Source: a virus. From it: DNA of 43,681 bases. This document shows positions 5,825-41,760 of the stretch, in pieces (the stretch's first letter is position 1; each line of letters starts with the position of its first letter). The position numbers were made by a program, and so were the translations under genes. The DNA lies in the IMG/VR virus record IMGVR_UViG_3300032246_000632, positions 1 to 43,681 of that record, one strand, 5' to 3'. The notes beneath the pieces are model-generated. The model was not told where the DNA came from. It ran no database searches and worked only from the letters and a program-made list of their open reading frames with translations.

Positions 5825-5830
5825 ATAAAT

Positions 5831-7217: not shown

Positions 7218-7229
7218 AAATCACTAATT

Positions 7230-10517: not shown

Positions 10518-10518
10518 T

Positions 10519-10692: not shown

Positions 10693-10701
10693 AATATATT
10701 C

Positions 10702-10720
10702 AATTATTTATATAATAATT
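10702..10720 (+). other. AT-rich perfect inverted repeat before the 10721 start
   Basis: AATTATT-TATAT-AATAATT is a perfect 7-bp inverted repeat whose last base touches the next ATG. It also contains TATAAT, but no convincing -35 element lies 16-18 bases upstream. It could be a weak promoter or simply an unstructured-leader equivalent. Confidence 0.3.
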
Positions 10721-11143: not shown

Positions 11144-11148
11144 AATTT

Positions 11149-11469
11149 ATGCCTCCAAAAAATGAGCTTCTGACTGAAGCACCAACACCAACAACAGACG
11201 CGATGCCGGGTGAAATGGCCGCACCAACTCCTGACATGGCTCCCGCTGGTGGACAAGTTATGGTTCAAATGCCATCTGACGCATTTGATGCCATCTACAC
11301 CCTCGTCACACAGCTTGCCACAGGGCTTGAAACGCTCAAATCTGATGTTGAAGCGCAAAAAGGTGGCGCAATGCCTCCAGAGGGTGAAATGATGCCCCCA
11401 GAGGCGGCTCCAACTGGTGCAGACGAAGAGTTTTTGAAATCTCTTGCACAAGAGGGTTCAATGCGCTAA
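11149..11469 (+). CDS. Pro/Met-rich hypothetical virion protein
   Basis: 106 residues of low complexity: Pro/Ala/Met-rich termini (TEAPTPTTDAMPGEMAAPTPD, and MPPEGEMMPPEAAPTG) flank a predicted helix (DAFDAIYTLVTQLATGLETLKSDVEAQ), which suggests a short coiled coil. It starts 5 bases after the preceding stop. No enzyme motif. Probably an assembly or scaffold-like factor; the function is not recognised. Confidence 0.62.
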   Translation: MPPKNELLTEAPTPTTDAMPGEMAAPTPDMAPAGGQVMVQMPSDAFDAIYTLVTQLATGLETLKSDVEAQKGGAMPPEGEMMPPEAAPTGADEEFLKSLAQEGSMR

Positions 11470-11478
11470 TTTCGCGCC

Positions 11479-15474: not shown

Positions 15475-17576
15475 TGAAATCACCGCAAATCACTTCTGGA
15501 CGGCAGACTAAAACTTGCGCTGGTTGGACTCAAGGCGTAAACTCTGTTCGCAATCCTTGGGCACTGCCAGAAAACCAAGTAAAGTGGGCAGTTAACTCAC
15601 AATTTCGTGGTGGAATTGCACAAACAAGACCCGGCCAATCCATGCGCTTGTCGCTGCCTCCGGGCAACTTTCAAGGCGGTATATTGTTTCTTGCAAACAA
15701 ACAATTCAAGGCGGCAGATGCTACAACATCTACGCAAATTTATGGAACAAATGGCGAGGGCGTTCAAGCCGACGAGTTGCCATACATCGTTTTTGCTGTC
15801 AATGGCAAGGTTTATTGGAGTCCGTTCCCGCTTACACAACCGCAAGACTGGAAACCATTCCAATTGACCAATGTTTCGCTTGATCCAAATGTTTCACAAT
15901 TTTGTTTCACGCTCGCAACGAAATCAGCAAACATTTCGACTGGTGGCGATGTTTCTGTAACTCCTTCACATCGCGTATTGTTCATCCAAGATGGCGTAAA
16001 CGCTCCTGTTTATTGGGATGGTTCAAATACCACCGGAGTTCAAGATGCAGACATTCCAATTGGCTTTTGGATGGCATATTCTGGAAATCGACTTTGGGTT
16101 GCCAACAAAAATATCGTGCTGGCATCCGATCTTGGCGACCCTACAAGTTGGAAGGAACGCACAACTGGATCAGGACGTGGAGACTTCTCGTTTACTCGAC
16201 CAGTAACGGCGCTTGTAAACTATGTGGGTCAAAACAACGACCAAAAATTATATGTTTTCACAGATCGTGCAACTTATGCACTTTCAAGCGGAATTTACGA
16301 TAGAACCACATGGGGAACTACTCCAAACTTCCAGACTATTTTGTTTCCAAACGTAGGATGTATTGCTGGTAAATCCATCGCGTTTCAAGCGGGTCAAATG
16401 TGGTGGTTCTCGCAAGGCGGGTTGGTATCAGCGGACGTTGCTGGCAACGCTTACTTGTCATCGCAGGTTTTGTACAAAGATGTCGAAATGGTGCGAGCAA
16501 AGGCATACATGGCAGGAGATCAAACGGGAATTTGTGCAACATCATTTGAGAATTATTTGCTTTATAGCATCCCGTATCTTGAGCCTCTTAATTCAGCTAC
16601 AATGGTCATGGATTGGGCAGTTGCGGCTGAAATGGGGTCAAACCGCCAACCTGCTTGGTGCGGAGTCTGGACAGGAACACGACCTGTTGAATGGACTACA
16701 GGAATTGTTGATGGTCAACCTCGCTGCTTTCATTTCTCTGTTGATTATTCAGCGACAAACGATGGTTCTTACATATCGCTATGGGAATCTTTCACTCCCA
16801 ATCGCGTTGATTCGTATTTGAGCATTAATGCAGATGGCACAACAACAAATCTTTTTAATCGCATTTACTCGCAAGTTGAAACTGGTCTTCTTGGAGACGG
16901 CATGGATTTCAAGCAGTTTGTTTATTCAGAGCTTGAGTGCGTAGAAATTGGAGGCACTGTAGATGTCAAGGCATCATATCGCGGCAGCAAAGGGCAGTAT
17001 CAATCAATTCTTGACACGCGCATTTTAGCAGTAACTGAAGACTACCAATGGCAAGAGACTCCGTTTGCTACAGAGATTGAAAAGCTTGGTTTTTTGAACA
17101 CGCAATATCGTCGTTTGATCACTGAATCAGCGACGCGAAATGCCGTTGCTGAAACTTGTGAATCATATCTTACAACAGATATTGATAAAGGTTTTTCTAT
17201 GCTTGTTGAATGGTGCGGAGAATTTGGTGTAGAGACAATTAGGATGTTCCAAGACCCGTGGAGCGAAAGGTCAACTGGTGTTCCTCAATCAAACGAAAAA
17301 CAATCTTGCTTGCTTGCTCAGGATGGATCAACATTAACGCTTGATTTGCTACCAAGCCCATATGAAGCACCGCAAACAGACCAACAGTCTTGGTACGCGA
17401 AAGTTTATCGAACAGTAACTTTAACCTGTCCTTCTTTATCGTCAATTTCTGCAACAGCAGCAGCATCATTCTTGTCAAGCATTTCATTTACACACGCTGA
17501 AGAACAAGCTGGAATTCTTGCTGAACAAGCTGCAAATTCAGCGGCGCAACAATACAGAATACTTAATCCTTGCTAA
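15474..17576 (+). CDS. Tail nozzle-like beta-propeller protein
   Basis: 700 residues beginning at an ATG overlapping the upstream stop. The N-terminal pattern GWTQGVNSVRNPWALPENQVKWAVN resembles phage nozzle proteins (tail tubular protein B-like or functional equivalents). Repeated beta blades follow: HRVLFIQDGVNAPVYWDG, FWMAYSGNRLWVA, KLYVFTDRATYALSS and MWWFSQGGLVSAD, matching a propeller. The C-terminal ~100 residues are helical and alanine-rich (SATAAASFLSSI, EEQAGILAEQAANSAAQQ). Directly behind the adaptor gene, it most likely forms the tail nozzle at the virion's distal end. Moderately strong assignment. Confidence 0.8.
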   Translation: MKSPQITSGRQTKTCAGWTQGVNSVRNPWALPENQVKWAVNSQFRGGIAQTRPGQSMRLSLPPGNFQGGILFLANKQFKAADATTSTQIYGTNGEGVQADELPYIVFAVNGKVYWSPFPLTQPQDWKPFQLTNVSLDPNVSQFCFTLATKSANISTGGDVSVTPSHRVLFIQDGVNAPVYWDGSNTTGVQDADIPIGFWMAYSGNRLWVANKNIVLASDLGDPTSWKERTTGSGRGDFSFTRPVTALVNYVGQNNDQKLYVFTDRATYALSSGIYDRTTWGTTPNFQTILFPNVGCIAGKSIAFQAGQMWWFSQGGLVSADVAGNAYLSSQVLYKDVEMVRAKAYMAGDQTGICATSFENYLLYSIPYLEPLNSATMVMDWAVAAEMGSNRQPAWCGVWTGTRPVEWTTGIVDGQPRCFHFSVDYSATNDGSYISLWESFTPNRVDSYLSINADGTTTNLFNRIYSQVETGLLGDGMDFKQFVYSELECVEIGGTVDVKASYRGSKGQYQSILDTRILAVTEDYQWQETPFATEIEKLGFLNTQYRRLITESATRNAVAETCESYLTTDIDKGFSMLVEWCGEFGVETIRMFQDPWSERSTGVPQSNEKQSCLLAQDGSTLTLDLLPSPYEAPQTDQQSWYAKVYRTVTLTCPSLSSISATAAASFLSSISFTHAEEQAGILAEQAANSAAQQYRILNPC

Positions 17577-17577
17577 T

Positions 17578-17832
17578 ATGCCATCAATCATTGACGCTTC
17601 TGTAAAAGTTAATAACTTTCCTAACCGATTTGTTTCACCATTCGGAGATGACCCAGTTGTTCCTCTCTATTCTTCTGTGCCAATTCCGATTGATGCTGAA
17701 AATTGTCTGCCTTGCGTTGTTTGTGGAAATTTTGCAACTCGCAATAAAGTTATTCAACAACAGGCTGAAAGATTCAAAGGATACTTGCCAACAGAATTGA
17801 GTGGAAATGAAGTTGTGGTTGGAACTAATTAA
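17578..17832 (+). CDS. Small hypothetical virion-region protein
   Basis: 84 residues starting one base after the nozzle stop (TAATATG). It contains CLPCVVCGNFATRNKVIQQQAERFKGYLP, with C-x-x-C-x-x-C (CLPCVVC) suggesting a small metal site or disulphide-forming element; the end is NEVVVGTN. No family recognised. Tight packing with the nozzle suggests co-expression in the late operon. Confidence 0.65.
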   Translation: MPSIIDASVKVNNFPNRFVSPFGDDPVVPLYSSVPIPIDAENCLPCVVCGNFATRNKVIQQQAERFKGYLPTELSGNEVVVGTN

Positions 17833-17840
17833 ATAAATAA

Positions 17841-18227
17841 ATGAGAACGAAAATTGAATATAAATTAGCAAGACATGGAACAAACGAGTTCTATGAATTG
17901 CAAAATTTCGCGCAGGAATTTGACCATGAAATCATTGAGCATCCGAATATCAATGTTTACGCGCATTATTCTAACGGCAAGTTATTTGGATATTCTGATC
18001 ATGTATTTCTTCCCGTTGTTTATCCTGCATTTCACCCAAAGCATACGCGACCACAAGATGTAATCCAAGTGATGAGCGATTGGAAGGCGCATTCTCAACT
18101 TTCTGGTCAACCCGGATACATTGGAGTGCCGTTAATCAATGATCGGCCTAATTTTAGCAACGAAATTATGAATAAATTAGGTTTGACAAAGATGGATCGT
18201 GAAATTTACAATATGAATAATTTTTAA
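17841..18227 (+). CDS. Hypothetical protein, possible degenerate GNAT fold
   Basis: 128 residues after an AAATAAATAA leader. The middle NVYAHYSNGKLFGYSDHVFLP looks like the central strand pair of acetyltransferases, and GYIGVPLINDRPNFSNEIMNKLGL, leading into EIYNMN, resembles the C-terminal strand-helix-strand of a GNAT domain, but the P-loop-like R/Q-x-x-G-x-G/A motif is absent. Similar small proteins occur in phage internal-protein regions. Function unknown; the GNAT resemblance is a weak reading. Confidence 0.62.
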   Translation: MRTKIEYKLARHGTNEFYELQNFAQEFDHEIIEHPNINVYAHYSNGKLFGYSDHVFLPVVYPAFHPKHTRPQDVIQVMSDWKAHSQLSGQPGYIGVPLINDRPNFSNEIMNKLGLTKMDREIYNMNNF

Positions 18228-18229
18228 TC

Positions 18230-19108
18230 ATGGGCGGCACAAAAACAGTTGATGCTAGAAAGTATTTAACGCAACCAGATTCCTCTCCGGATTTGGCTAT
18301 TATGCTTGCCATGCAACAAGCCCAAGCAAGGCAACAAGCAACTCAAGGTCAATTGTTGCAAGCGTATGCTAATATGACTCCTGCACAGCAGCAATATGAT
18401 GCCGCAGCAGAGTCTAGGAGACTTTCTGAACTTGGGATGGCTAACGTCCAGCGTTCCCGCGAAATGGAACAATTGACATCTCCAGAAGCTGCTCAAATGC
18501 GTCAAGCTCAAGGCGCTGAACTTGCAAATCTTGCAAGCATGGACAACGCAACTCGCTACATGAATGAATGGGCGCGTAACCAAGGACTTATTCAAGGATA
18601 TGAAACTGGTCTTGGAGATTCTACTGTTGGACAAGCGGCAACATACGATGCCGCTTTAAAAGCTAAAGCTAATTACGATCAACAAAACCTTGCATTGCAG
18701 CAAGAAACTCTTCGTCAAATGCAAGCTCCAGTTGGCGGCATTGATCCATCAACATCAATTTCTGCACAAGAGGCGGCAAAAGCAGCAAACTTGCAAGCCA
18801 TGCAGAATTTCCAAAATTCCATGTATGGCAACATTGGTGGATACAATCAATCTGTTGCTGATCAAATGGCTAGAATTGGTGCAGGTTTTCAAGGAATTAA
18901 CCAAACAGCGCAACAAAACGCCTTGAATTACCAAGGTGCATTGCTTAATCAACAAGCTCAAAATCAAGCGTCTAAAGCCGCAATGACAGGAGCATATGCT
19001 CAAGCCGCTGGATCGGCACTTGGAGGAATTACTGGAGGATTAGCGCAAAGATTTGCTCCAGTTGGCGTTGCAAAAACAGCAACAACTCCTGCAACAGCTA
19101 CTGTTTAA
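18230..19108 (+). CDS. Gln/Ala-rich internal virion protein, paralogue 1
   Basis: 292 residues, start MGGTKTVDARKY two bases after the previous stop. Nearly all helical and Gln/Ala rich (MQQAQARQQATQGQLLQAY). Signature segments: ELGMANVQRSREMEQL, YMNEWARNQGLIQGYETGLGDS, and PVGGIDPSTSISAQEAAKAANLQAMQ. The next gene has the same three segments in the same order, so the two are tandem paralogues. The hydrophobic C-terminal stretch (AQAAGSALGGITGGLA) may insert in a membrane, as in podovirus ejection proteins. Role in DNA ejection inferred. Confidence 0.75.
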   Translation: MGGTKTVDARKYLTQPDSSPDLAIMLAMQQAQARQQATQGQLLQAYANMTPAQQQYDAAAESRRLSELGMANVQRSREMEQLTSPEAAQMRQAQGAELANLASMDNATRYMNEWARNQGLIQGYETGLGDSTVGQAATYDAALKAKANYDQQNLALQQETLRQMQAPVGGIDPSTSISAQEAAKAANLQAMQNFQNSMYGNIGGYNQSVADQMARIGAGFQGINQTAQQNALNYQGALLNQQAQNQASKAAMTGAYAQAAGSALGGITGGLAQRFAPVGVAKTATTPATATV

Positions 19109-19109
19109 T

Positions 19110-19901
19110 ATGGCATACAAACTACCAAATTCAGCAGTAGCACTTCAAGGATTGGGAATGCAATCGCAGGGACAACTTGCCGCATTGCAAAATCAAGCTA
19201 GTCTTCTCAAATCTTACGCATCGCAAGCTCCAGTAATGCAGTCTTTTGATGCCGCAAAAACATCGCAACAAGCGTCTGAGTTTGGAATGGACAATTTGCA
19301 GCGTTCAAAGGAATTTGAGCGTTTATTGAATCCAGATATTGCAAAAATGCGAAATGAGCTTGGCTCTCGCGTTGCTGAAGCAACAAACCTTGATGCAACG
19401 AAAAATTGGATGGACAATTGGGCGGTTAAAAAAGGATTGATGAACCAGTCTGGATTGGGAACTGATAGCTTGATTGGAAGATCCGCTATTTATGACCAAG
19501 CTACCGAGGCTGGACGGCAAGCAAGGTTGCAAAACCTCGCAATTCAACAAGGCTATCTTGCTCAAACTCCAGCTCCCATCGGGGGTCTTGATCCAGCATC
19601 TATCATTGCCGCAGAACAAGCTGCAAAAGCTCAAAATCTTGCCGCAATGCAGCAATATCAAGGCAATGTAATGCAAGGAACTCAGCAACTTAATCAATCA
19701 ACAACGGATTGGATTAATCAAAACCTTGGACAACTGCAACAAATCAATCAAAACCAGCAACAAAACCAACAAAATTACCAGCAAATGATGTTGCAAAATG
19801 CTCAACAAAATGCTGCTAGTTCAAACGCGCAACAAGGGCAAATGATTGGTGCTGGAGGTGCTGCAATTGGTTCATTGGCGGGAGTGGCAATTATTATTTA
19901 A
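19110..19901 (+). CDS. Gln/Ala-rich internal virion protein, paralogue 2
   Basis: 263 residues; the start is the ATG of TAATATG, although the frame is open further upstream inside the preceding gene. It matches paralogue 1 in order: EFGMDNLQRSKEFERLLNP, WMDNWAVKKGLMNQSGLGTDS, and APIGGLDPASIIAAEQAAKAQNL. A Gln/Asn-rich stretch (LQQINQNQQQNQQNYQQM) follows, and the C-terminus is glycine/alanine-rich and hydrophobic (GAGGAAIGSLAGVAIII), probably membrane-active. Its stop overlaps the PP-loop gene by one base. Likely an ejection protein produced by tandem duplication. Confidence 0.75.
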   Translation: MAYKLPNSAVALQGLGMQSQGQLAALQNQASLLKSYASQAPVMQSFDAAKTSQQASEFGMDNLQRSKEFERLLNPDIAKMRNELGSRVAEATNLDATKNWMDNWAVKKGLMNQSGLGTDSLIGRSAIYDQATEAGRQARLQNLAIQQGYLAQTPAPIGGLDPASIIAAEQAAKAQNLAAMQQYQGNVMQGTQQLNQSTTDWINQNLGQLQQINQNQQQNQQNYQQMMLQNAQQNAASSNAQQGQMIGAGGAAIGSLAGVAIII

Positions 19902-20734
19902 TGAAACAACTAATAGATACAACAATACATAAAATACAAGAATGGAACAAAAGATGGCCGAGAGCAGTAGTTTTATGGAGCGGAGGTAAGGATTCCACGG
20001 CACTGCTGCATTTGATCAAGTTTGGAGCAGGAATTGATCTTCCTGTTATTCAATATCGTGAACCTAAGTTGCGCGAAAGATATGCTTATTCTGACAAGTT
20101 AATCAAAGAATGGAAGCTGGAAGTTTATGACTATCCTCCAAGCAAAATAGCAATTGCTGATGGGCCTGATGTTGAAACTGGAGAACTGCGCTTTGACTTC
20201 ATAAAGTATTACCAATGGGGTCAAGGAACAGCAGTGTGTCTTTCTCTTGGAACTGAGAAACCAAAAGAAGGAGAAGATTTCTTGTGCGCTGTTACTGACG
20301 TTCTACAACGCCCTACAGGCACGTTTAATTGGCCTTGGGGAGCAGTGTATATCGGAACCAAGTATACCGACACAGACTTGATTAAAGGTCACGTTCCACT
20401 TGCGGTTGATATTCGTTATACTGAAAATTCACCAATGTCTCTGTATCCAATGCGAGACTGGACAGATGATGATATTTTTGAATACCTAGAAGACAACGGA
20501 GTTAAACTTGATCCAACAAGGTACGTCAAAGATTATTACAAGTGGAAGAACAATCCAGACAAGTCATTAAACGCAGATTTTTATCCAATTTGCTTCAATT
20601 GCGTAAATCGGCATGAAGGAAAGTATGTTGATTGTCCTAAATTAAAGGCCAAAATATCCAATATTTCACATCTTGCTCTTTACGAAGATTTGGTTAATGA
20701 AGACCTTGGTTTTCGACCTACATGGAACAAATAA
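19901..20734 (+). CDS. PAPS-reductase-family PP-loop protein
   Basis: 277 residues. The PP-loop VLWSGGKDSTALL (SGGKDS at 27-32) and the layout (strand VIQYREPK, then the core region MSLYPMRDWTDDDIFEYLEDNG) place it in the phosphoadenosine-phosphosulfate-reductase/adenine-nucleotide alpha-hydrolase superfamily. A C-terminal Cys set (Cys231, Cys234, Cys245 in CFNCVNRHE and VDCP) may hold a metal or Fe-S cluster, as in related sulfur-transfer enzymes. True PAPS reductases end in an E-C-G-x-H motif that I do not see. It sits between virion genes and overlaps the YkgJ-like gene by 13 bases. Candidate roles: sulfur transfer to DNA, tRNA or protein, or sulfate reduction; the substrate is unknown. 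Confidence 0.85.
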   Translation: MKQLIDTTIHKIQEWNKRWPRAVVLWSGGKDSTALLHLIKFGAGIDLPVIQYREPKLRERYAYSDKLIKEWKLEVYDYPPSKIAIADGPDVETGELRFDFIKYYQWGQGTAVCLSLGTEKPKEGEDFLCAVTDVLQRPTGTFNWPWGAVYIGTKYTDTDLIKGHVPLAVDIRYTENSPMSLYPMRDWTDDDIFEYLEDNGVKLDPTRYVKDYYKWKNNPDKSLNADFYPICFNCVNRHEGKYVDCPKLKAKISNISHLALYEDLVNEDLGFRPTWNK

Positions 20735-21018
20735 ATGAATTTGACTGCAAATCATGCGGTGCTTGTTGCTGTTTTAAATGGTCATGGCCTGTATTAAAGC
20801 GAGATCGGTCAGATACAATTAATATACCAAAAGAAATGGTAAGAACAGACTATCCGTTAATGAAAACCACTGACAATCGTTGTATTGCACTTGATGGAAA
20901 AGTTGGAGAATCTGTATGTTGCAAGGTTTACAATGACAGACCAAATTCTTGCAGAAATTTTGAGCCCGGCAGTGATCTTTGCAAAGAAGCTCGCAAAAAA
21001 GTTCTTGAACAAACTTAA
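20722..21018 (+). CDS. YkgJ-family cysteine-cluster protein
   Basis: 98 residues with the YkgJ (formerly UPF0153) pattern: FDCKSCGACCCF (Cys9, Cys12, Cys15-16), CCKVYNDRPNSCRNF (Cys66-67, then Y-x-x-R-P-x-x-C with Cys77) and Cys87 near the end. Members are thought to bind zinc or an Fe-S cluster. Translation is coupled to the PP-loop gene through a 13-base overlap, so the two products probably work together, for instance as redox or sulfur-transfer partners. Pairing is seen directly; the functional link is inference. Confidence 0.82.
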   Translation: MEQINEFDCKSCGACCCFKWSWPVLKRDRSDTINIPKEMVRTDYPLMKTTDNRCIALDGKVGESVCCKVYNDRPNSCRNFEPGSDLCKEARKKVLEQT

Positions 21019-21053
21019 ATTCCATGCTAACAACCAACGAATTCCTTTAATTT

Positions 21054-21530
21054 ATGGGCGGTAGTAAATCAACACCTAAACAACCAAAAGCTCAAGTTGC
21101 TCCTGCAATGGATACTATGGCTCCGTACATGGCAATGTTGCAATCGCAACAGGCAATGCAGGCGCAGCAAGACTCGGCGGCAGCGGAAATGCAACGGCAA
21201 GCTCAAATTAACGCTCAAAATGAACAAGCTCGTCAAGCAGGAATGGTGGCAATGCAGCAAGGTGAGGCTGCTGCAAGAAACGCATTGAGCGGAATGAATG
21301 TTGGTCAACAAGCGCAAGATCAAGCGTCAATGGCAGCACAGCAAAAAGCGGGGTCAATGGCAACTGGTACAGATGTTGGTCAAATGCGTCAAGCGTCACT
21401 TGGTGGCATGGCAACAGGTCAACAAGGCGCTGCCGCGATGGCAGCAAATGCTGGCGCAGGTGGGGGACAGCAACGCTCTAATATGTTTTCAATGCCAACC
21501 ACAACAGGTTTAACTTTCGGAGGGGCATAA
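21054..21530 (+). CDS. Gln/Ala/Met-rich internal virion protein, paralogue 3
   Basis: 158 residues, start MGGSKSTPKQPKAQ. Helical, Gln/Ala/Met-rich, with MDTMAPYMAMLQSQQAMQAQQ and the end NMFSMPTTTGLTFGGA. The next gene has the same architecture: MGGSS start, basic stretch, D-x-M-x-x-Y-x-x-x-x-Q-A-Q-Q-D core and N-M-F-S-x-P ending. Together with 18230 and 19110 it belongs to a cluster of low-complexity internal proteins. Probable ejection or internal head protein. Confidence 0.7.
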   Translation: MGGSKSTPKQPKAQVAPAMDTMAPYMAMLQSQQAMQAQQDSAAAEMQRQAQINAQNEQARQAGMVAMQQGEAAARNALSGMNVGQQAQDQASMAAQQKAGSMATGTDVGQMRQASLGGMATGQQGAAAMAANAGAGGGQQRSNMFSMPTTTGLTFGGA

Positions 21531-21531
21531 T

Positions 21532-22062
21532 ATGGGAGGATCAAGTACAAAAAGTATCAAAAAGCAAGCACCATCCAAAAATGCAAGTGCAAGTGGTGTA
21601 GATCCAATGATGGGTTATTTGTCGCAAATGCAAGCGCAACAAGACGCTCAAGTTGCACAAGCTGCTGAAGCGCAACGTCAGGCACTATTGCAATCTCAAA
21701 TGGCTGCTGGATCTCAAGCGGAGCAAATGGGCGAGTCTGCCGCTCAACAACAACTTTCTACAATGGGTTCAATGCAGTCAATCCGCGATGCTAATGCACT
21801 CCTTGCAGCGCAACAAGCGCAAGCCACCGCTGGACAGCAAGCAACTGGAGGTGGATTTGACTTTAACAAATCCCGCGAAGAGGCACTTGCTAACCTTGGC
21901 GCAGCGGGTGGAATGTTGCCATCAACATATTCCAATGCACCCAAAACTTCTGTAAATCCAGCTTTAACAGGACTTGTAAACCAAGGTGCAGGAGCAGCAG
22001 CTAAAAAAGCAAATATGTTCTCACTTCCATCTTCGTCTGACCTTAAATTTGGCGGCGTTTAA
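21532..22062 (+). CDS. Gln/Ala-rich internal virion protein, paralogue 4
   Basis: 176 residues, TAATATG start. MGGSSTKSIKKQAPSKNAS leads into DPMMGYLSQMQAQQDAQVAQ and AGGGMLPS-like glycine segments, ending NMFSLPSSSDLKFGGV. Start and end match the 21054 product, so they are tandem duplicates that have diverged in the middle. It carries an additional FNKSREEALANLGAAGG segment typical of the helical ends of internal proteins. Late virion role inferred from cluster and composition. Confidence 0.7.
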   Translation: MGGSSTKSIKKQAPSKNASASGVDPMMGYLSQMQAQQDAQVAQAAEAQRQALLQSQMAAGSQAEQMGESAAQQQLSTMGSMQSIRDANALLAAQQAQATAGQQATGGGFDFNKSREEALANLGAAGGMLPSTYSNAPKTSVNPALTGLVNQGAGAAAKKANMFSLPSSSDLKFGGV

Positions 22063-22064
22063 TT

Positions 22065-23813
22065 ATGGCAATTTCATACTCTGGCGAGGGCTACAAATTC
22101 AATCCCCAGTTTGCAAATCTTGGCTCATTGCAAGGCTTGCAACCTCTTGATGTCACTCGCAAGGCTGAATTTCAGCTTCAGCCATTGGCATACGCTCCCA
22201 TTCAATCCTCGCGTCCAGAACTTGTATCTGAAGGCATCTCAAAAGGCATTCTTGCTGCTGTTAGCGGAATTACTGAAGGCATTACTGCTAAATATAAGGA
22301 AGAAAAAGCGTTAGAAATTGAAGAAAATAAAACAAAAAGAGCAGAAGCTCACGATAAAGCAATGCTTGATAGGCAAATGGCATTGCTTGACGCTAAAGAA
22401 AGAATAAAAGGATCACTCCCAACAAAATTTATTGACACTGCCACAAGTGAAGAGGTTGTTTCTGGTGAAGGAGACGCAACTGAAACAAAAATTGAACCTG
22501 TTTCAACAGAAGGAGACGTAACTAAAAACGATTTGCCTATTGATTTTGTAACTCCTGTTTCAGAAATGGAAACAAACGGGCCAAGTTTGTTTCGATCATT
22601 AACACCAGCAGATTCAATGCAATCTGGAATTGCAGAGCAAGCTAAACAATTGGAAGGGTTGTCTCCAAAATATGCTACTGCTGGTCTTTATGGAGGAGCA
22701 ATTGCTCCTATTGAACCAGTTCCTCAAATGTCTCTTGAAGGACTTAATGTAGCTGCAATATCTCCAGAGCAAAATGCAAAAGCAATTCAAGCAAGTAAAC
22801 AACTCAGTGAAACACTTGCTGAAATTAAACCAATAAAACAAGAAGCACCAAAATCAAAAAGAATGGTTTTTACATCAGCTAAAGCAGCAGATGAAGAATC
22901 AAAGCGTTCTTATGAAGGATGGGGTGAAGGAAGTATTCCTAAAAAAGTCAATATTATTGATAGTAATGGAAAACCAACTGGTCAAGTTGGGTATTCTGTT
23001 GAGAGACAACAAATAAAACCAGAAATACTTGAATCTAAAGCAGCGAGAGAAGAAGCATCGCAAGCAAGACAAGAAGCAGCAAAAGAACGCTTAGGAATTT
23101 CTAAACAAAATACGCTAAATCGAGAGCAAGTGAATTTCCAAAATCATCCAGACATTAAAGCATTTTTAGCTCCAAATGGAATGCGTCAATCCATTGGAAA
23201 ATTTGTAAGAGACTACGATGCTATTGCAAAAAATCCAGAGGCATCAGGTATATCCGATATCGGTCTTCTTGATATGTTTGGCCGAGCCGAGGGCGGAGGA
23301 AAAATCACAGAAGGACAAGCCGCTCTTGCATTGCGTTCTGTTGGTATTTTTGACAAACCAGAGCAACTTATTCAAAAACTTGAAGGGGGTGCGAGACTTT
23401 CTCAAAACCAACGAGATCAAATGTTGCGAGTTATTGCTGAAGATCATGCTGCTCAAGCTAATCTTGCAAATCAACAGGTTCAAATGAAGAGAAATCAGTT
23501 GAAAAAACAAGGTATTACTGATGAAGAAGATTTGCCTCAATTCTTTATTTTGCCTCAAACAAAATGGGAAGCTGAAAGTGAACTAGCTCAAATGAAAGCT
23601 GAATCAATTGCATTGCGAGATCAAATGAAAATTGCAGAAACGCCACATGAAAAAAATAAATTTAAGTTAAAAATAGAAACGATTTATGAAAACGCAAAGG
23701 CGTTGCAAAGAAAAATAGATAAATCAAAAAGCGCAATCATTAATCTACATGAAATGGAAACAACGCCACAAGGATGGAGTGGTGGTGCTTCTGCGATTTT
23801 GATGCAACAATAA
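22065..23813 (+). CDS. Internal virion protein (582 aa), helical
   Basis: The start MAISYSGEGYKFNPQFANL, a linker-rich charged middle (residues ~90-310), and a conserved helical part at about 330-580: IGLLDMFGRAEGGGKITEGQAAL, then LRSVGIFDKPEQLIQKLEGG. This segment (small helical domain with G-L-x-D-x-[FY]-[GA]-R) recurs, from memory, in phage internal/ejection proteins. The end is a coiled coil with many Lys/Glu. It is one base upstream of the giant-protein ATG (TAAAATG), so both are expressed together. No catalytic residues seen. Likely partner of the giant protein in the head or ejectosome. Confidence 0.72.
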   Translation: MAISYSGEGYKFNPQFANLGSLQGLQPLDVTRKAEFQLQPLAYAPIQSSRPELVSEGISKGILAAVSGITEGITAKYKEEKALEIEENKTKRAEAHDKAMLDRQMALLDAKERIKGSLPTKFIDTATSEEVVSGEGDATETKIEPVSTEGDVTKNDLPIDFVTPVSEMETNGPSLFRSLTPADSMQSGIAEQAKQLEGLSPKYATAGLYGGAIAPIEPVPQMSLEGLNVAAISPEQNAKAIQASKQLSETLAEIKPIKQEAPKSKRMVFTSAKAADEESKRSYEGWGEGSIPKKVNIIDSNGKPTGQVGYSVERQQIKPEILESKAAREEASQARQEAAKERLGISKQNTLNREQVNFQNHPDIKAFLAPNGMRQSIGKFVRDYDAIAKNPEASGISDIGLLDMFGRAEGGGKITEGQAALALRSVGIFDKPEQLIQKLEGGARLSQNQRDQMLRVIAEDHAAQANLANQQVQMKRNQLKKQGITDEEDLPQFFILPQTKWEAESELAQMKAESIALRDQMKIAETPHEKNKFKLKIETIYENAKALQRKIDKSKSAIINLHEMETTPQGWSGGASAILMQQ

Positions 23814-23814
23814 A

Positions 23815-26800
23815 ATGGATATTACTGAAAATCCAGAGGGTTTCTTTTCAAACCTTTCTTCAATAGCAAATGATGAAAAACCAAAAGAAGAAAAAATTGA
23901 GAAACCAGAGGAACCAAAAACCTCAAATGCATCAATAATTGAAGACCCAGAATCGTTCTTCTCTAATTTATCAAAAACTCCAGAACAAAAATCACAAGAG
24001 GAAACTGGAGGAGATTTTTTTAAAACTGCATATAAAACGATTGATGAATTTCTTGTTCAACCAAAAGCTCAACAAGAACCAACTCCAGATCAATCATTTT
24101 TAACATCAATTCAAAAGAAAAAAACATCTGATCTTGATAAATTTGATGTTGATTACATCAAATCCTTGACTCCAGACCAGCGATATTCGGTCATGCAAGC
24201 GAGAAAGGATATTCCGCTTGATATATTGTCGGATGATGAGCAACGGCAATTGCATGAAAATGAAAAATCCAAAGGCATACTTTCATTCCCAAAAGAAAAA
24301 GGATTTTGGTATAATCTGTTGGATGGATACAACGAAATGGCTCAAGGCGCATTTGATATTGGAAAAACTGCCGCAAAAGTTGCAGTTGGTTCAGCGGAAG
24401 TCCCGTATAGAATTCTACAAGGAGCAAGCGGCGACTATGGGGCCGCATTGGAGGGTGAAAAATTGTTGTCTCCAGAAGATAAAAAAGAAGTAGAGGCGTG
24501 GCGCGTAAATGCTATAAATCTTGCAAATACTCCAATGTCATCTGGAGACCCACGTCAAAAAGACATTTATTTGGATTCAAAATATCTTGCTAAAATTCTT
24601 GAAAAATTAACGCCAGAACAAAGGCAACAAGTTAAAGAAACAGAAGCAAAAAAAATTGCTGATGCGAAAAGCTCATTTTATTCTTTTTTTGCTCCAGCAT
24701 TTGAGTTGCCGGGGGCTGTTGCTAACGCAGGAAAAACAATACTTGCAGGAGGCATTGGGATTGGTGATTGGGGAAATGAAAAAATGGCAGCGGCACTTGG
24801 CCCAGAAATGGAGCAAAAGGCAAAAGAACTATCATTCGCAAATTGGAAAGCACGGAGAAAAATTAAGCAGGCGCACGAAGCGTATACACGCGAATTTCCA
24901 GACGTGTATGCAAGGATGTATGAAAATCCTGCTTTAAAATCCGCATTAAACGAAATAACTTTATTTCAAGGCCCAAGTGTAGAAGAAACCGCAAAATCTC
25001 GCGGAATTTCAGAAGACGCAGCAAAGGAATTGCTGAAAAAAGAAGCTGAAAAAAACAACGAAGTAGCATTAAAAGAATTAGAGCAACAATTGCCAGAAGT
25101 AAGTGAAAGCGCAAAGCTAACTGGAGAGTTTTTGCTTCCACGCGGAATTGGAATGGAATTATTTGGTGCTGCTGGACTTGCTACTGAAGCAACAAAAAAT
25201 GTAGCTCGCGGATTGAAGTTTTTAAATAAAACTGAAGACGAAATAAACGCAATAATGGAAGCTGATCGAGCATTGCAACGATCACGCACTGCACAACGAT
25301 ATGCAGCACGTCAAGAAATTGGAAAAGACGTTTCTCGCGCAGGCGAAAAAATGGAAGAAATCGGTCAAAAGTTTCGTCCTATTTCGGAATTTATTGAGAA
25401 AAAAACTAGCAATTTGAGTAAAATTGCACTTCCTGTTACTGGTGTTGTTTATGGGTATCAACACGATCCAGAGCATCCAATTTTAGGCTCATTAAAATAT
25501 GGACTTGGTGGATTGGGATTAAAATACGCAAAAGAAATTCCTGCATTTACTAAAGAACTTGGAGAGGCAATCCGTGTATCCGCTCCGGGAACTACTTTTG
25601 AAACTCTTGGCAAGGTTCCAGAAGGATCAAAAATTAAAGAGAAGATTCTTGCTAATGGAGGCAAAGGAATTGACAACCTGCTTGCGAACGCAAAAGAATA
25701 CGCTCAAACAGGCATTCATGGAGGAGCATTGGGTCTTGCTGTTGGTCTTTCGTCTGAAGATGATCCAGAAATTATTAAGAAAATGGCAAGCGATGGATTG
25801 CTTTATTCTGTTGGCACAAGAGGAATTCAACACGTTTTAGGCAAATTTTCAGTTGATCCAGTTATTGAAGAACGCAATCGCAAAATTGACGATTACAAGA
25901 TATATCAAGAATACAAGAATTCTACTCCAGAAACGCAAAAAAACATTGATGACTTAACTGATTGGAACAATGTTGTTCAAGCGTATGAAGGCAAGGCAAA
26001 TGAATACAAAGACGAATTAAATGATGCGATTCAAACTGGAGATCAAGCAAAAATTGAAAAAGCGCAAAGCAATGTTGATGCGCTTGATTCATCAATAAAA
26101 AACTTAAAAAAAGCAAATCTTCAGACGCGCAATGAACTTGGAAGGCAATTTTTGAAGTCCTACGTTGCCGCAAATGAACTTGCAAATAGCGCATTGTTGC
26201 CGGGGCAAAACAATGTTGGATTTCACATTTTAACAACAAACGAAATATTCCAAAAACTTCGCAGTGATCCAGCAAATGCAAATGTTCCAGATGCTGACAT
26301 TGCAAAAACTGCGGCACAACAAGGATTCTACTCTGGAATTGGCACAGCAGAACACGTTCCCGGCGCACCTATAACGCCCGGCGAGACAGGAATGACTTTT
26401 GATCGAACAAAGAATTCCATCGTTCTGAATGCAGACGCATTGCGAGATAGGATGGTTAAATATCGTCAGACTCCTATTGATGCATTGTGGCATGAATTGT
26501 CGCACTATCTTTTTAAAATTCCAGAGTTTAGAAAATTGATGGAAAACGTGGAATCATCATTGTTTTCAACGGAAGTAAAAGACATTTCTGGAAAGGTTAT
26601 CGCATCTACTTCTGGCATATATTCTCCCAAAGACTTGGTGGATATGTATAGAAAATCTTATATGCAGGGGCATGACGTTCCATCCATTGAATCTTTGGCT
26701 AAACTATCTGGAGTTTGGGATGAATCACGCGGAACGCTGGACGAGCAGAAAGTTGCCAATTATATGCGCGAAGAGGTAATGGCAGACTTGTTTGGCGAGG

Positions 26801-33958: not shown

Positions 33959-34042
33959 TTTACATCGAAATGCCGTGCTGTAGTTTTGATTCCAAGCAGA
34001 CGGCACAACGCCAGAAGCGCAATAAATAAATACATACATCAA
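33959..34042 (+). promoter_or_regulatory. Promoter/leader cassette, copy 1
   Basis: -35-like TTTACA (33959-33964), 14 bases, then TGTAGT (33979-33984); read as sigma-70 this gives TTTACA-16-TAGTTT, and TAGTTTTG also fits the Bacteroidota TA-N2-TTTG element. A-tracts (GAAAAAAAGTTTAAAAAAAAC) lie just upstream. Downstream come CCAAGCA, CGGCACAACGCC and the leader ATAAATAAATACATACATCAA before the ATG at 34043. The same order of elements recurs at 40850-40930. Confidence 0.62.
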
Positions 34043-36439: not shown

Positions 36440-36464
36440 AACAAATAAATAAATACATAAATAC

Positions 36465-36758
36465 ATGAATATAAAACAACGAAATAAATGGCTTGATGGT
36501 TTTAATCTGCGTATTAAGACTCAAGAAGAATGGATTACAGACATTATGAATGTTCCTGCATATGCAAGAGCATTAGTTGCACGAATGATCTGGTGGGACT
36601 ATGCCAGCGAAAAGTTAAGCAAGGACAAATGGGAGCAGTTTGACCAGTTTCTTGTTCCTCCATACGACGAAGTTTGTCCAAAAGCATTGGTCAATGGATT
36701 GATACTTTGTGGGTACTCCAAAGACCGCGCTAATACTCGTGTAAGGAGGGCAGCATGA
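36465..36758 (+). CDS. Small hypothetical protein
   Basis: 97 residues after a long ATAAATAAATACATAAATAC leader. Rich in Trp (WLDGFNLRIKTQEEWITD, ARMIWWDYASEKLSKDKWEQ) and ends KDRANTRVRRAA. No recognised domain. Start is well supported by leader position. It overlaps the next gene by 4 bases. Confidence 0.62.
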   Translation: MNIKQRNKWLDGFNLRIKTQEEWITDIMNVPAYARALVARMIWWDYASEKLSKDKWEQFDQFLVPPYDEVCPKALVNGLILCGYSKDRANTRVRRAA

Positions 36759-38029: not shown

Positions 38030-39313
38030 ATGTGGATACTACCATCACAACTCTTGAATTCTGCGCCGGGTATGGCGGCATTGGACTTGGACTCAAAAAC
38101 ATCTTTGGCGAGCGAATGCGAACCATCGCATATTGTGAGCTTGAGGGGTTCGCTCAAGCCAATCTCCTCAGTAAAATGGAAAAAGGACTCATGGATGTCG
38201 CACCTATATGGAACGATCTTAAAACCTTCCCATACGAATCGTTTCACGGACTGGTGGATATCCTCATTGCGGGATACCCTTGCCAACCATTTTCCAGCGC
38301 AGGAAAGCGAGCAGGAAAAGAAGACCCAAGACATCTCTGGCCTTGGATTGCAGACGGAATTCGACTTCTTCAACCAAGAATGTGCTTCTTTGAAAATGTC
38401 GAAGGACATATCTCGTTGGGACTCTCCACAGTCATCAGTGATCTGGAAGAACTGGGTTACAAAGTGTCGTGGGGAATATTCAGTGCGAGTGAAGTTGGCG
38501 CAGTCCACCAAAGGAAAAGAGTGTTCATCATGGCCCACAATAAGAGTCAATCAAGCGGAAGATTGTGCGAGCGAACGCAGACGCAAGAATCCAAGTTTGG
38601 ATTCAATTGTGAAGCAGAACTGGCCGACTCCAACGGCGGGGGAGTGTCTGGATCAAGGAACGAATTGGGAAACTCTTGCAAGGCTGGACAAGGGCGGGAG
38701 AATACTTCGCAGAATGGCATCATTGGAAATGTCTGGCCCTCACGACCCGGACAACCACAATACGCATGGGAGCCGCCCAGAGTTGTTGTCGGACGCATGG
38801 CCCACTCCAACAGCCCTGAGCCGAGTCAGGAACGAGGAGACAATGGAGAAGTGCCTCAATTTTCGCCAGAGCAACGGACAGACAACGGTGCCTCTATATC
38901 TGGAGGAGAGAGTCAACATCGAGGAGATGAACCGCCCAGAGACATGGGCAACACCGAACAGCTTCTGTTTCCAGCCACCGGAGAACACGGAGCAATGGAC
39001 GAAGCGAGCGGAATTCCAGCAGACCGAGAAAGGAGTGAATCTCCACAAGCCGATACAGAGTCAAGTTCTGCACGAGAACGAGAAGGTAGTTGGAGCAATG
39101 CCTCCGAGTGCAGCGAAATTGAACCAAAGATGGGTCGAGACATTGATGGGACTACCGATGGGATGGACATCGCCGAGTTGTCCGGCCTCAGTAATTCAGA
39201 ACTGGCCGAAATTCGTGAATGGATGGTTAAAGGCGACAACCGCACAGACGAACTACGATCCTGCGGAAATGGAGTTGTTCCAGCAACAGCAGAACGAGCG
39301 TTCCGAGTCTTAA
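38030..39313 (+). CDS. Overlapping-frame W-P-T-P repeat protein (putative)
   Basis: A 427-codon frame, ATG start, overlapping nearly all of the methyltransferase gene in another + frame. It is not featureless: SSVIWKNWVTKCRGEYSVRVK, SSWPT (W168), QNWPTPTAGEC (W198), DAWPTPTALSR (W257), ETWATPNSF (W306) and LNQRWVETLMGLPMGWTSP (W368, W379) make four W-[PA]-T repeats and a closing motif. From memory, this pattern (repeated W-P-T-P-T-A, then L-N-x-x-W-V-E-x-L-M-G-x-P-x-G-W-T) recurs in phage proteins of unknown function, often beside C5 methyltransferases. Each W-P-T lies over methyltransferase residues such as M-A-H or L-A-D-S, so it may be a systematic shadow. The ATG (38030) contains the methyltransferase GTG. 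Real or not is undecided. Confidence 0.5.
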   Translation: MWILPSQLLNSAPGMAALDLDSKTSLASECEPSHIVSLRGSLKPISSVKWKKDSWMSHLYGTILKPSHTNRFTDWWISSLRDTLANHFPAQESEQEKKTQDISGLGLQTEFDFFNQECASLKMSKDISRWDSPQSSVIWKNWVTKCRGEYSVRVKLAQSTKGKECSSWPTIRVNQAEDCASERRRKNPSLDSIVKQNWPTPTAGECLDQGTNWETLARLDKGGRILRRMASLEMSGPHDPDNHNTHGSRPELLSDAWPTPTALSRVRNEETMEKCLNFRQSNGQTTVPLYLEERVNIEEMNRPETWATPNSFCFQPPENTEQWTKRAEFQQTEKGVNLHKPIQSQVLHENEKVVGAMPPSAAKLNQRWVETLMGLPMGWTSPSCPASVIQNWPKFVNGWLKATTAQTNYDPAEMELFQQQQNERSES

Positions 39314-39336
39314 TGGAGGAATTGATAAACAAATGA
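38032..39336 (+). CDS. C5 cytosine DNA methyltransferase
   Basis: 434 residues. Motif I FCAGYGGIGLGL (10-21), motif IV GYPCQPFSSAG (catalytic Cys84), motif VI ENV (121-123), motif VIII QRKRVFIMA (160-168), then a long target-recognition region, and motif X in CGNGVVPATAERAF near the end. It methylates cytosine C5 in DNA using S-adenosylmethionine, likely protecting phage DNA from host restriction. Start is GTG at 38032 (V/M-D-T-T-I-T-T-L-E-F), nested in the ATG of the overlapping frame. The recognition region is unusual in composition (Ser/Glu/Arg/Gly), perhaps because both frames are constrained. The stop overlaps the helicase ATG (ATGA). Confidence 0.9.
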   Translation: MDTTITTLEFCAGYGGIGLGLKNIFGERMRTIAYCELEGFAQANLLSKMEKGLMDVAPIWNDLKTFPYESFHGLVDILIAGYPCQPFSSAGKRAGKEDPRHLWPWIADGIRLLQPRMCFFENVEGHISLGLSTVISDLEELGYKVSWGIFSASEVGAVHQRKRVFIMAHNKSQSSGRLCERTQTQESKFGFNCEAELADSNGGGVSGSRNELGNSCKAGQGRENTSQNGIIGNVWPSRPGQPQYAWEPPRVVVGRMAHSNSPEPSQERGDNGEVPQFSPEQRTDNGASISGGESQHRGDEPPRDMGNTEQLLFPATGEHGAMDEASGIPADRERSESPQADTESSSAREREGSWSNASECSEIEPKMGRDIDGTTDGMDIAELSGLSNSELAEIREWMVKGDNRTDELRSCGNGVVPATAERAFRVLMEELINK

Positions 39337-40625
39337 AAACACTACCTATCGCTATCACTGCCGAGAAAGCAGCACTATCACTCATCGCAATCGATCCGGA
39401 GGTTCTGCCGCACCTCGCATGGCACTCTGACCTGTTCGCCCTGGAGCAGCACAAGCTGATCTTTAAATCACTTGAGAGGGTTTACCAGCGGACAGGATCA
39501 ACAAACGCACTGGGGGCAATCTCTGACCTCGAAACAACTGGCAAGCTCAACGCTGCGGGAGGCAAAGCTGAAGTTATTGAAACACTCAAAACAATCCTGA
39601 TAGCTCCGGGTGCTATGTGCGTTGAGACAGCATCCGATTACCGCTCGCAACTGCTCAAGGCGAAAGGCTATCGTGATGCCATAAAGACATGGGAGGAATC
39701 GCATGACGATGTTTGCGCCATGCGAGCTGACCTGCCAGCACTCGCTGAGTCACTTGCCAATGCAATCCAGCCAGAAACCAATTCCAAGAGCGTGAAGGAG
39801 CATCTGAGGGATTTTCTCAATGACCTGGAGAACAAGACACCACTGGAAAACTTCGCTACTGGAATTCCAAAGGTTGATAAACTCCTTGGTGGTGGAATGC
39901 GCCGAGGCGAGATGCTGGTAGTTGGAGCGCAGACAAGCGGAGGTAAGTCAATCCTGTTGTATCAAGCGGCACTCAACGCATTGCTTGATGGAAAATCGGT
40001 AACGATATTCAGTCTCGAAATGCCAGCGAAATCTATCCTCCAACGCATGGCTTGCAATCTGATTGGTAAGACCATTGTACCTATGCGTGAGATTGATGCT
40101 GTCAGTGATTGGAAGTCAGTTGCTAATGCAAAGGACATATCCAGCGCAATTGGACAACTCATGAAGCTGAACCTCACAATCCGCGACGACCTCTCTGAGG
40201 TTGGCGAGATCATCGCTGAAGCTCAACGTCTCGCATCACTTGGCAAGGCAGATATAATTGTGGTCGATTACCTACAAATTGTAACGATGCCTAACGCCGA
40301 CAACAGAGAGCAGGCAGTGAGCGAACTATCGCGCAGGCTGAAGCTGACAGCACTCAAGGCAAACTCAGCGGTTTTGACGGCATCGCAACTCAACGACGAT
40401 GGTGCAGTGAGGGAGTCACGCGCAATCGGACATCACACAGACTTCCTGCTCATCATCTCCCATCCTGACGACAAAAAGAAGGAGACTGCTGGCTACCGCA
40501 AGACAGCAACAGCACAAGCGACATCACGCATCCGAATAGACAAGAATCGCAGAGGTCAACGAGACGTATTCGTGCCAGTGAAAATGCGCGGAGACATTTC
40601 ACGCTTTGAGGAGGTCAATGAATAA
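39333..40625 (+). CDS. dnaB: DnaB-family replicative helicase
   Basis: 430 residues. N-terminal helical domain (about 10-110: EKAALSLIAIDPEVLPHLAW), linker, then the RecA-fold: GIPKVDKLLGGGMRRGEM, Walker A GAQTSGGKS (198-206), SLEMP, Walker B IIVVDYLQ (about 308-315), SQLNDDGAVRES, and the end with RIDKNRRGQ. A hexameric 5'-3' helicase that unwinds at the replication fork. Start overlaps the methyltransferase stop by 4 bases. Near the usual DnaB length (~450). Confidence 0.92.
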   Translation: MKTLPIAITAEKAALSLIAIDPEVLPHLAWHSDLFALEQHKLIFKSLERVYQRTGSTNALGAISDLETTGKLNAAGGKAEVIETLKTILIAPGAMCVETASDYRSQLLKAKGYRDAIKTWEESHDDVCAMRADLPALAESLANAIQPETNSKSVKEHLRDFLNDLENKTPLENFATGIPKVDKLLGGGMRRGEMLVVGAQTSGGKSILLYQAALNALLDGKSVTIFSLEMPAKSILQRMACNLIGKTIVPMREIDAVSDWKSVANAKDISSAIGQLMKLNLTIRDDLSEVGEIIAEAQRLASLGKADIIVVDYLQIVTMPNADNREQAVSELSRRLKLTALKANSAVLTASQLNDDGAVRESRAIGHHTDFLLIISHPDDKKKETAGYRKTATAQATSRIRIDKNRRGQRDVFVPVKMRGDISRFEEVNE

Positions 40626-40863
40626 AGATGACGCATACGAGCATTGTCTCATGCTCCTCGAAACAAGCATCGCAATATGGGAAAGCCGCATCCAGTCTCG
40701 ATTTGCGCTCGCTGAGAAAAACTACCAAGAGGCAAGAAAAATATATGAAAAAAATTTCAGCGAGTCTGCAAGCGGTTCAGCGGACACTGAAGACCGCAAA
40801 CCTAGCACTGATGCGGTTGCAGAGTGGGATGCTTTTTTTGAAAAAAATGTTGACCTGTTTTAG
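40618..40863 (+). CDS. Small acidic coiled-coil protein
   Basis: 81 residues from the ATG at 40618, behind a strong Shine-Dalgarno (GAGGAGG, 40608-40614) inside the helicase C-terminal codons. Helical (MLLETSIAIWESRIQSRFALAEKNYQEARKIYEKN region), then an acidic Ser-rich linker and FFEKNVDLF. It could be a helicase accessory. Its last codons carry the -35 element of promoter copy 2. Confidence 0.6.
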   Translation: MNKDDAYEHCLMLLETSIAIWESRIQSRFALAEKNYQEARKIYEKNFSESASGSADTEDRKPSTDAVAEWDAFFEKNVDLF

Positions 40864-40930
40864 CAATGCTGTAAATTCATTCTCAAGCAAGGCACAACGC
40901 CGAGCGAAAAAACATACATACATACATCAA
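40850..40930 (+). promoter_or_regulatory. Promoter/leader cassette, copy 2
   Basis: TTGACC (40850-40855), 14 bases, TGTAAA (40870-40875; or TAAATT with a 16-base spacer), then TCAAGCAAGGCACAACGCC and ACATACATACATCAA before the ATG at 40931. The TGCTGTA box, the CAAGCA and GGCACAACGCC boxes, the CATACATCAA leader and the 14-base spacing all match copy 1 at 33959. It drives the AlaRS-domain gene only, making that gene an independent unit. Confidence 0.65.
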
Positions 40931-41425
40931 ATGAAAACTTCAAAAACTGGATACATTGCAAAACAACAAGACAACGGAAAATATGTTGTTGGTCGGAATT
41001 GTGAGAAATTTCAAAATCAGCGTGCAAAACAATTTGATACTATTGATCAAGCTGAAAAAGCTGCAATAAAGCGGGCCAAAGACCTCGCTGCAAAATCCGA
41101 AAGCCTCAATGGGATTCCCTGTCTCATCGCCAACCTCGGCGCAGTCGATGGCGACTACCTCCAAGCCGTGCTGGACGCACTGAAGCCATCCTTTGATGGA
41201 GTCACAGTACTTGCAGGTTCCGCCAACAGCGCCGTCGCTCTGGCCTCCAGCGTCTCTCCAACGCACACCTCAAAATTACAAGCCGGCAAAATCATTCAGA
41301 CCATCGCGCCGATCGTCGGAGGAAAGGGGGGAGGCAAACCCGACTCCGCACGCGGAGGCGGCAAGGATACGTCGAAAATTTCCGAAGCCCTCGCAGCAGC
41401 AAAGAACATGCTCGCAGCAATGTAA
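40931..41425 (+). CDS. Alanyl-tRNA synthetase C-terminal (C-Ala/DHHA1) domain protein, chimeric
   Basis: 164 residues from the ATG behind promoter copy 2; the longer frame from 40628 crosses the promoter and is rejected. Residues 1-60 are AT-rich, phage-like (KTGYIAKQQDNGKYVVGRNC, helical AEKAAIKRAKDLAAK). Residues 61-164 match the C-terminal domain of bacterial AlaRS: GIPCLIANLGAVDGDYLQAV, LDALKPSFDGVTVLAGSANS, LQAGKIIQTIAPIVGGKGGGKPD, ARGGGKDTSKISEAL. In AlaRS this domain contacts tRNA and mediates dimerisation; no catalytic or editing domain is here. Codons in this part are visibly GC-rich versus neighbours (estimate by eye), consistent with recent capture from the host. It may bind tRNA or interfere with or adapt host AlaRS. 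Confidence 0.86.
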   Translation: MKTSKTGYIAKQQDNGKYVVGRNCEKFQNQRAKQFDTIDQAEKAAIKRAKDLAAKSESLNGIPCLIANLGAVDGDYLQAVLDALKPSFDGVTVLAGSANSAVALASSVSPTHTSKLQAGKIIQTIAPIVGGKGGGKPDSARGGGKDTSKISEALAAAKNMLAAM

Positions 41426-41472
41426 TGCCTGGACTTGAAATAACTGAACGCTACGGATTCTAAAAACAAAAC

Positions 41473-41493
41473 GAGCGGGTTTTATCCCCGCTC
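41473..41493 (+). terminator. Hairpin after the AlaRS-domain gene
   Basis: GAGCGGG-TTTTATC-CCCGCTC: 7-bp perfect stem, loop of 7. No T-run follows on the + strand (ACAACTAATAAAAAC), while A-rich sequence lies upstream (AAAAACAAAAC), so it would read as a terminator for the minus strand. It probably stabilises or ends the 3' end of the unit 40850-41425. The gap 41426-41532 holds nothing else. Confidence 0.45.
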
Positions 41494-41532
41494 ACAACTA
41501 ATAAAAACATTTCGTCACAATCAATAAATATT

Positions 41533-41760
41533 ATGAAACTTCTCAATACAATTACTATCGAGGGGTCATTGAACAAGAATGACCGAGGAACGCATGAATG
41601 GGGGACATTTCGGATTACTTCGCAAAGATGCTTGTCAAAAGAAACCATTTTATTTCTTTGCTCAAGTCACCTAATGGGAGGACAATCATTTTCAGTAAAC
41701 GAAACAAAAAACGAAAGTAATTATATTTACCAAGGTAGCTATGACTGCTGGAGCGATTAA
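41533..41760 (+). CDS. Small hypothetical protein
   Basis: 75 residues after ATAAATATT leader: LLNTITIEGSLNKNDRGTHE, WGTFRITSQRCLSKETILF, SNYIYQGSYDCWSD. Probably a small beta-structured protein. No family recognised. Overlaps the next gene by 20 bases. Confidence 0.58.
   Translation: MKLLNTITIEGSLNKNDRGTHEWGTFRITSQRCLSKETILFLCSSHLMGGQSFSVNETKNESNYIYQGSYDCWSD

Follow-up and report, generated by a model that had tools for sequence, protein, structure and literature searches.

The window (the whole stretch of DNA analysed, a linear virus record in IMG/VR, 43,681 bases long) carries, behind its gene for a DnaB-type replicative helicase, a chimeric gene for a 164-aa product in which about 47 residues of phage origin are joined to about 117 that come from a bacterial alanyl-tRNA synthetase (AlaRS). 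The gene lies at a variable site between conserved borders, with the following features:

39333..40625, + strand: DnaB-type replicative helicase gene, anchor of the conserved neighbourhood (Pfam DnaB_C, 1.7e-34)
40618..40863, + strand: conserved gene for a small protein (81 aa) ahead of the variable site, with same-place homologues in 16 of 17 related phages
40850..40877, + strand: promoter-like TTGACC-16-TAAATT, which overlaps the last bases of the upstream gene and is part of the locus
40878..40930, + strand: 5' border of the cassette, a leader with ACATACATACATACATCAA directly before the start codon, common to four relatives with other cargo (L008, L010, L012 and L100)
40931..41425, + strand: chimeric gene, 164 aa (ORF list; domain, structure and genome matches)
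40931..41073, + strand: phage-derived 5' part of this gene, 47 codons, GC 33.6%, with no homologue found in the searches given below
41074..41429, + strand: captured 3' end of a host AlaRS gene, about 117 codons, the stop codon and 4 bases, GC 57.9%
41321..41338, + strand: GG motif GKGGGK with product lysines K132 and K136 (alignment of AlaRS relatives)
41430..41463, + strand: untranslated 3' remnant of an older phage gene (..GLEITERYGF, stop TAA at 41461-41463), in frame with 40931-41073 once the insert is removed
41473..41493, + strand: hairpin GAGCGGG-TTTTATC-CCCGCTC, 3' border of the cassette (relatives' sequence and folding; T-run only on the - strand)
41490..41532, + strand: 3' border sequence around CACAACTAATAAAAACATTTCGTCACAATCAATAAATAT, ahead of the next gene, kept in relatives with different cargo
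41533..41760, + strand: small gene that follows in the variable region, 75 aa, also in L010-L013

The cassette site and its borders

The dnaB gene is 77-92% identical across 17 related phage contigs, and both the 81-aa gene and a downstream gene for a single-strand-binding protein are common to almost all of them. One contig (L015) stops before the 81-aa gene, and the site is readable in the other 16 related phages. The AlaRS piece is missing from all 16, which have different small genes, or none, between the conserved borders. On the 5' side the leader ends in ACATACATACATCAA immediately before the ATG. The 3' border reads CACAAC(C/T)AATAAAAACATT..., and in three relatives (L010, L012 and L100) the hairpin GAGCGGG..CCCGCTC lies ahead of it, behind other cargo genes. 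The position after this border is occupied in most other relatives by a different gene (product MT..MTPLAERL.. or MTLELTQIAQKW..). L100 has the same first cargo as L010 followed by a different gene, which is direct evidence for the swapping of small genes at the hairpin border.

The first-pass annotation had likened the AlaRS-bearing gene to a 'moron', that is, a late acquisition equipped with its own promoter and 3' hairpin. Late acquisition is borne out by the absence from relatives and the deviant GC content, but a unit with its own signals is not what is found, as the insert lies inside an existing ORF. Both signals do exist, but they are shared by the hypervariable locus whatever its cargo: TTGACC-16-TA(A/G)ATT is kept in nearly all relatives, independently of the cargo gene, and, as the promoter-like site and the hairpin belong to the borders of the locus, neither arrived with the AlaRS DNA. 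Promoter-like sites in the region are no more frequent than chance (1 found, 1.5 expected). The hairpin was scored as terminator-like on the - strand only, and its candidacy as terminator of the chimeric gene was rejected because the T-run is on the opposite strand.

The leader ACATACATACATCA recurs just before small-gene starts at 34028-34041, 36455-36468 and 40912-40929 (4 matches against 0.34 expected), and no obvious Shine-Dalgarno-like sequence lies ahead of the start at 40931. Further upstream, two + strand ORFs of 427 and 434 aa (38030-39313 and 38032-39336) overlap almost completely in different frames. Each matches DNA methyltransferase families, one phrog_1008 (8.5e-17), the other phrog_363 (1e-54) and Pfam DNA_methylase (1e-32); both frames also match a contig from a bacterial genome bin (L117), and the pair may represent overlapping genes or an old frameshift. 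In the structural region, the Q/A-rich predicted proteins encoded at 18230-19108, 19053-19901, 21054-21530 and 21532-22062 (+) resemble two duplicated gene pairs, and a gene of the PAPS reductase type (19901-20734, +; Pfam 2.7e-6) is found amid the structural genes.

Composition and origin of the chimeric gene

The C-terminal part of the product is recognized as AlaRS by several searches. Pfam DHHA1 (PF02272) matches residues 64-161 (2e-11; 44.5 bits, cut-off 25.9), the solved C-Ala domain of the Aquifex aeolicus AlaRS (3g98) matches the 164-aa product at 2e-6, and the NCBIfam alaS model TIGR00344 gives a fragment match (2.8e-14; 52 bits against a cut-off of 457) limited to model positions 721-847. 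By domain search and the span of TIGR00344, the AlaRS catalytic, tRNA-recognition and editing domains are absent, and a Pfam search of the product gave no match to the DHH catalytic domain. The first-pass annotation was thus right to see a catalytic-domain-free AlaRS fragment, made up of the C-Ala domain only and devoid of the catalytic and editing domains, but its start at residue 61 has to be moved: the AlaRS part begins at residue ~48. The captured block starts about 12 residues ahead of the globular domain and leaves out the helical C-Ala subdomain for dimerisation. Judged from its sequence, the phage product keeps the tRNA-gripping C-Ala domain of AlaRS without the catalytic parts.

The two parts of the gene also differ in composition, as had been noticed at first pass: GC is 33.6% in the first 143 nt and 57.9% in the AlaRS part, against 42.2% for the window, and among 867 segments of 356 nt, taken at steps of 50 nt, none attains 57.9%. 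For the N-terminal 48-58 residues, no relatives were found in the phages or viral contigs searched, and matches of the N-terminal part to protein families were insignificant (E 0.0076 and worse). The whole 164-aa product, used as a single query against viral contigs, likewise gave no relative, and a second copy of the chimera was found nowhere in IMG/VR, so that it is known from a single contig.

At the DNA level, 41074-41429 aligns without a gap to the AlaRS genes of Verrucomicrobia, with 93.0% identity to L020/L106 and 91.3% to L105, from a second genome of the same bacterial family. The match spans the stop codon and 4 bases past it, and its ends are sharp on both sides, the 5' start being abrupt at residue ~48. 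In a genome scan with the protein, the best match was the AlaRS of a Verrucomicrobia bacterium (L020; 95% aa identity over 109 residues), other Verrucomicrobia AlaRS reached ~70% and less, and those of other phyla mostly ~35-43%. The donor-type gene of L020 is a complete AlaRS, with a reading frame of 929 codons if measured from the stop codon ahead of it. Within 351 coding bases, 25 and 30 differences separate the phage copy from the two bacterial ones, which have 38 differences between themselves, and this nests the phage copy between two closely related verrucomicrobial species. The AlaRS protein tree groups the same three sequences with support 100/97 and a phage branch of length 0. Parsimony assigns 8 changes to the phage branch, 2 of them aa-changing and 6 silent, and 16 and 21 to the bacterial branches; the 8 changes may partly predate the transfer and are too few for showing purifying selection after capture. 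Since the phage copy lies between the two bacteria and carries few changes, the capture is recent and its donor a close relative of both species. By its DNA match, then, the AlaRS piece is a recent capture from a relative of L020/L106 and L105.

The search for a donor clade, which the first-pass annotation had suggested, accordingly leads to the AlaRS of Verrucomicrobia and thereby to a probable host group. A host in the donor's verrucomicrobial family is supported by two genome bins of that family carrying DnaB genes 37% identical to that of the window, against ~28% for the chromosomal ones; in L117, the dnaB gene immediately follows the end of a phage-type methylase, the same arrangement as in the window. 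These phage-type DnaB relatives (L117 and L118, in genomes G015 and G017) probably belong to prophages or co-binned phages. One member of the donor family shares an identical C-Ala with a MAG that bears the label Spartobacteria (L022 and L114). A comparison of window positions 5000-24900 with 26 genomes of the donor family gave no DNA match of the kind expected from a prophage or CRISPR spacer.

The flanks of the insert carry the probable trace of an older gene. The insert is 356 bases long (2 mod 3), and when the flanks are joined without it the frame reads ..AAIKR GLEITERYGF and stops at the TAA of 41461-41463, giving a reconstructed gene of 58 codons whose product ends ..KRGLEITERYGF. The restored TAA sits exactly 9 bases before the hairpin arm GAGCGGG, and the cargo genes of L010, L012 and L100 also end in TAA 9 bases ahead of the hairpin, while the present AlaRS-derived stop lies 47 bases ahead of it. 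From the restored frame and a stop spacing identical to that of the relatives, it is concluded that a cassette gene of 58 codons was already in place when the AlaRS fragment went in. This empty-site geometry argues strongly for the interruption of an older phage gene. An uninterrupted copy of the 58-codon gene was not found in the viral contigs searched.

Predicted fold, tRNA binding and rival explanations

In an AlphaFold model built with 29 AlaRS relatives, residues 61-164 of the product have a pLDDT of ~90-97 and the first 40 residues one of 51-63. A small beta-beta-alpha phage domain was considered for the N-terminal part and set aside, the model being too weak there. The structure comparison proposed at first pass favours C-Ala: the best solved match of like size to the predicted model is 3g98 (E 5e-10, TM 0.88 by target length). 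The motif GGKGGGKPD is kept, K132 being invariant and K136 nearly invariant among the aligned AlaRS relatives. The globular subdomain of the C. elegans C-Ala has, on its own, a Kd of 0.5 uM for tRNA-Ala; tRNA is bound by the lysines on either side of the GG motif, which matter for binding, and the complete C-Ala accepts a tRNA-Gly that shares the D-loop of tRNA-Ala about equally well. For the C-Ala of E. coli, a preference for tRNA-Ala is reported (PMC10485164). Given the predicted C-Ala fold, the kept lysines and this published binding, binding of the tRNA elbow is a reasonable expectation for the phage product if it is made, and by this analogy we consider tRNA binding upon expression probable.

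The overall explanation that accounts best for these data, and which we hold to be rather probable, is a recent illegitimate insertion giving a protein able to bind the tRNA elbow. The 356-bp end of a verrucomicrobial host AlaRS gene would have entered, by illegitimate recombination, a 58-codon phage gene in the hypervariable cassette site behind dnaB, cutting off the last ~11 codons of that gene. The reading frame would happen to run on, yielding a 164-aa chimera of 47 phage residues and a complete C-Ala globular domain. The protein would be made from the locus's own signals and would bind the tRNA elbow, tRNA-Ala first, in at most mild competition with the host AlaRS. The history of insertion is by itself very likely; that the chimera has a selected function is considerably more doubtful. 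Indeed, a neutral accident is at least as likely as a function, because the insertion is young, occurs once and lies at a site of fast turnover. The accident, to which we give nearly an even chance, would be a neutral or mildly deleterious insertion in a fast-turnover locus, one that shortened a small gene the phage can spare and is seen before its loss. It agrees with the very young age of the piece (changes at 8 of 351 sites on the phage branch), with its occurrence on one contig at a high-turnover site where relatives have no comparable gene, and with the loss of the older gene's C-terminal residues. It accounts less well for a frame maintained over the junction, although chance alone gives this 1 time in 3, for a complete domain with an intact motif and neither stop nor frameshift, and for the silence of 6 of the 8 phage-branch changes, although that branch may partly predate the transfer. 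The converse reading, a selected elbow binder that sequesters tRNA-Ala or other tRNAs or competes with the host AlaRS, appears less likely. Its payoff might be a slower host translation or the shielding of tRNAs from host tRNA-cutting defences. An intact predicted C-Ala fold, the GG-motif lysines, the sub-micromolar binding of tRNA-Ala by the C. elegans globular subdomain and the about equal acceptance of tRNA-Gly by the whole C-Ala (PMC10485164) speak for it, but stand-alone C-Ala does not recur in other viral contigs, as covered by a search for the motif GKGGGKP[DE]. Unlikely, too, is the more specific proposal that phages of Verrucomicrobia can make a stand-alone tRNA-elbow-binding effector in one step, by grafting the host C-Ala on a small phage protein, and that the present one acts on host tRNA or translation in infection.

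The remaining alternatives carry little weight. A mixed dimer with the host AlaRS, one of the activities imagined at first pass, would interfere with the enzyme through a region to which C-Ala contributes (2zvf is titled a C-terminal dimerization domain). The coiled coil is important for AlaRS dimerisation (PMC4649089), and as it was left behind, with only ~12 residues of the preceding helix captured and the remainder being phage sequence, such interference is now disfavoured to the point of being very improbable. An assembly chimera or cellular contamination, slightly less remote, would fit the known presence of cellular DNA in viral metagenomes (PMC3877843) and the single contig. Yet the AlaRS piece is internal, with borders of the phage family on both flanks; its identity to known bacterial genomes is 93%, not 100%; no long word common to donor and phage family, of the kind that could misguide an assembler, was seen at either junction; and two junctions inside one gene would both have to keep the frame and the border geometry. 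Moreover, the six other viral contigs with the motif carry ordinary AlaRS (4 full-length, 2 running off the end of the DNA). Finally, DHHA1 is common to RecJ and NrnA, and the matches in the viral structure library are mostly to DHH phosphohydrolases, as would suit an ordinary phage relative of the DHH/DHHA1 phosphoesterases. These matches reflect the shared DHHA1 fold, and membership in RecJ/NrnA was rejected as a reading of them. With 95% identity to AlaRS, a match at the DNA level and no DHH catalytic domain, this alternative is already refuted and retains a negligible probability; the best matches are to AlaRS and not to DHHA1 phosphoesterases, and the GC content of the piece is extreme in the window, both contrary to what the first-pass annotation had named as grounds for abandoning the AlaRS assignment.

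Comparison with known systems

Small genes whose origin is unknown abound in phages. In the present case one can read the donor gene, the two breakpoints, the frame, the gene that was interrupted and the relatives' sites without the insert, which makes the chimera a datable case of phage gene birth from a host gene fragment, a moment almost never seen. The capture further suggests which bacterial group is the likely host of this uncultured phage family, and with the chimera it could be tested simply whether a bacterial C-Ala on its own acts on tRNA in the cell. The vs protein of T4, a modifier of valyl-tRNA synthetase, is an example of a small protein with which a phage targets a tRNA synthetase of its host. 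Unlike the AlaRS-derived chimera, T4 vs is not known to derive from the synthetase.

The ingredients of this case are each known singly: the capture of host genes by phages, the exchange of small genes between stem-loop borders (PMC4503421), and C-Ala outside AlaRS. In the open-access literature, no account was found of a phage gene that derives from C-Ala without the rest of AlaRS, and a search by alignment for stand-alone C-Ala in IMG/VR contigs returned only AlaRS, either full-length or cut short where the DNA ends. In one phage record from the human gut (MT836065), a C-Ala match is accompanied by an AlaRS ORF of at least 679 aa. Full-length AlaRS is likewise present in records classed as viral (L122-L125, probably phrog_28604), but these are whole AlaRS genes, whereas the chimera has only a fragment, joined in frame to a phage gene. 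The PeSL shuffling cassettes of T4-type phages, as presented in the part of PMC4503421 that cites Arbiol 2010 and Comeau 2014, have similar short promoter-like and stem-loop borders around exchangeable small genes. The present locus belongs to another phage group and has other sequences, its candidate promoter being a consensus match at chance frequency and its hairpin having no U-run on the + strand. The free-standing editing proteins of the AlaXp type II also carry C-Ala outside AlaRS (PMC10485164), but they have an editing domain and the phage chimera has none. Closest to the captured part remains the C-Ala of AlaRS itself (3g98 from Aquifex aeolicus, 2zvf from Archaeoglobus fulgidus), which the phage product resembles in sequence, predicted fold, GG motif and lysines. 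It differs in standing apart from the catalytic, editing and helical portions of AlaRS, in its fusion to an N-terminal part of phage origin and in being encoded by a phage.
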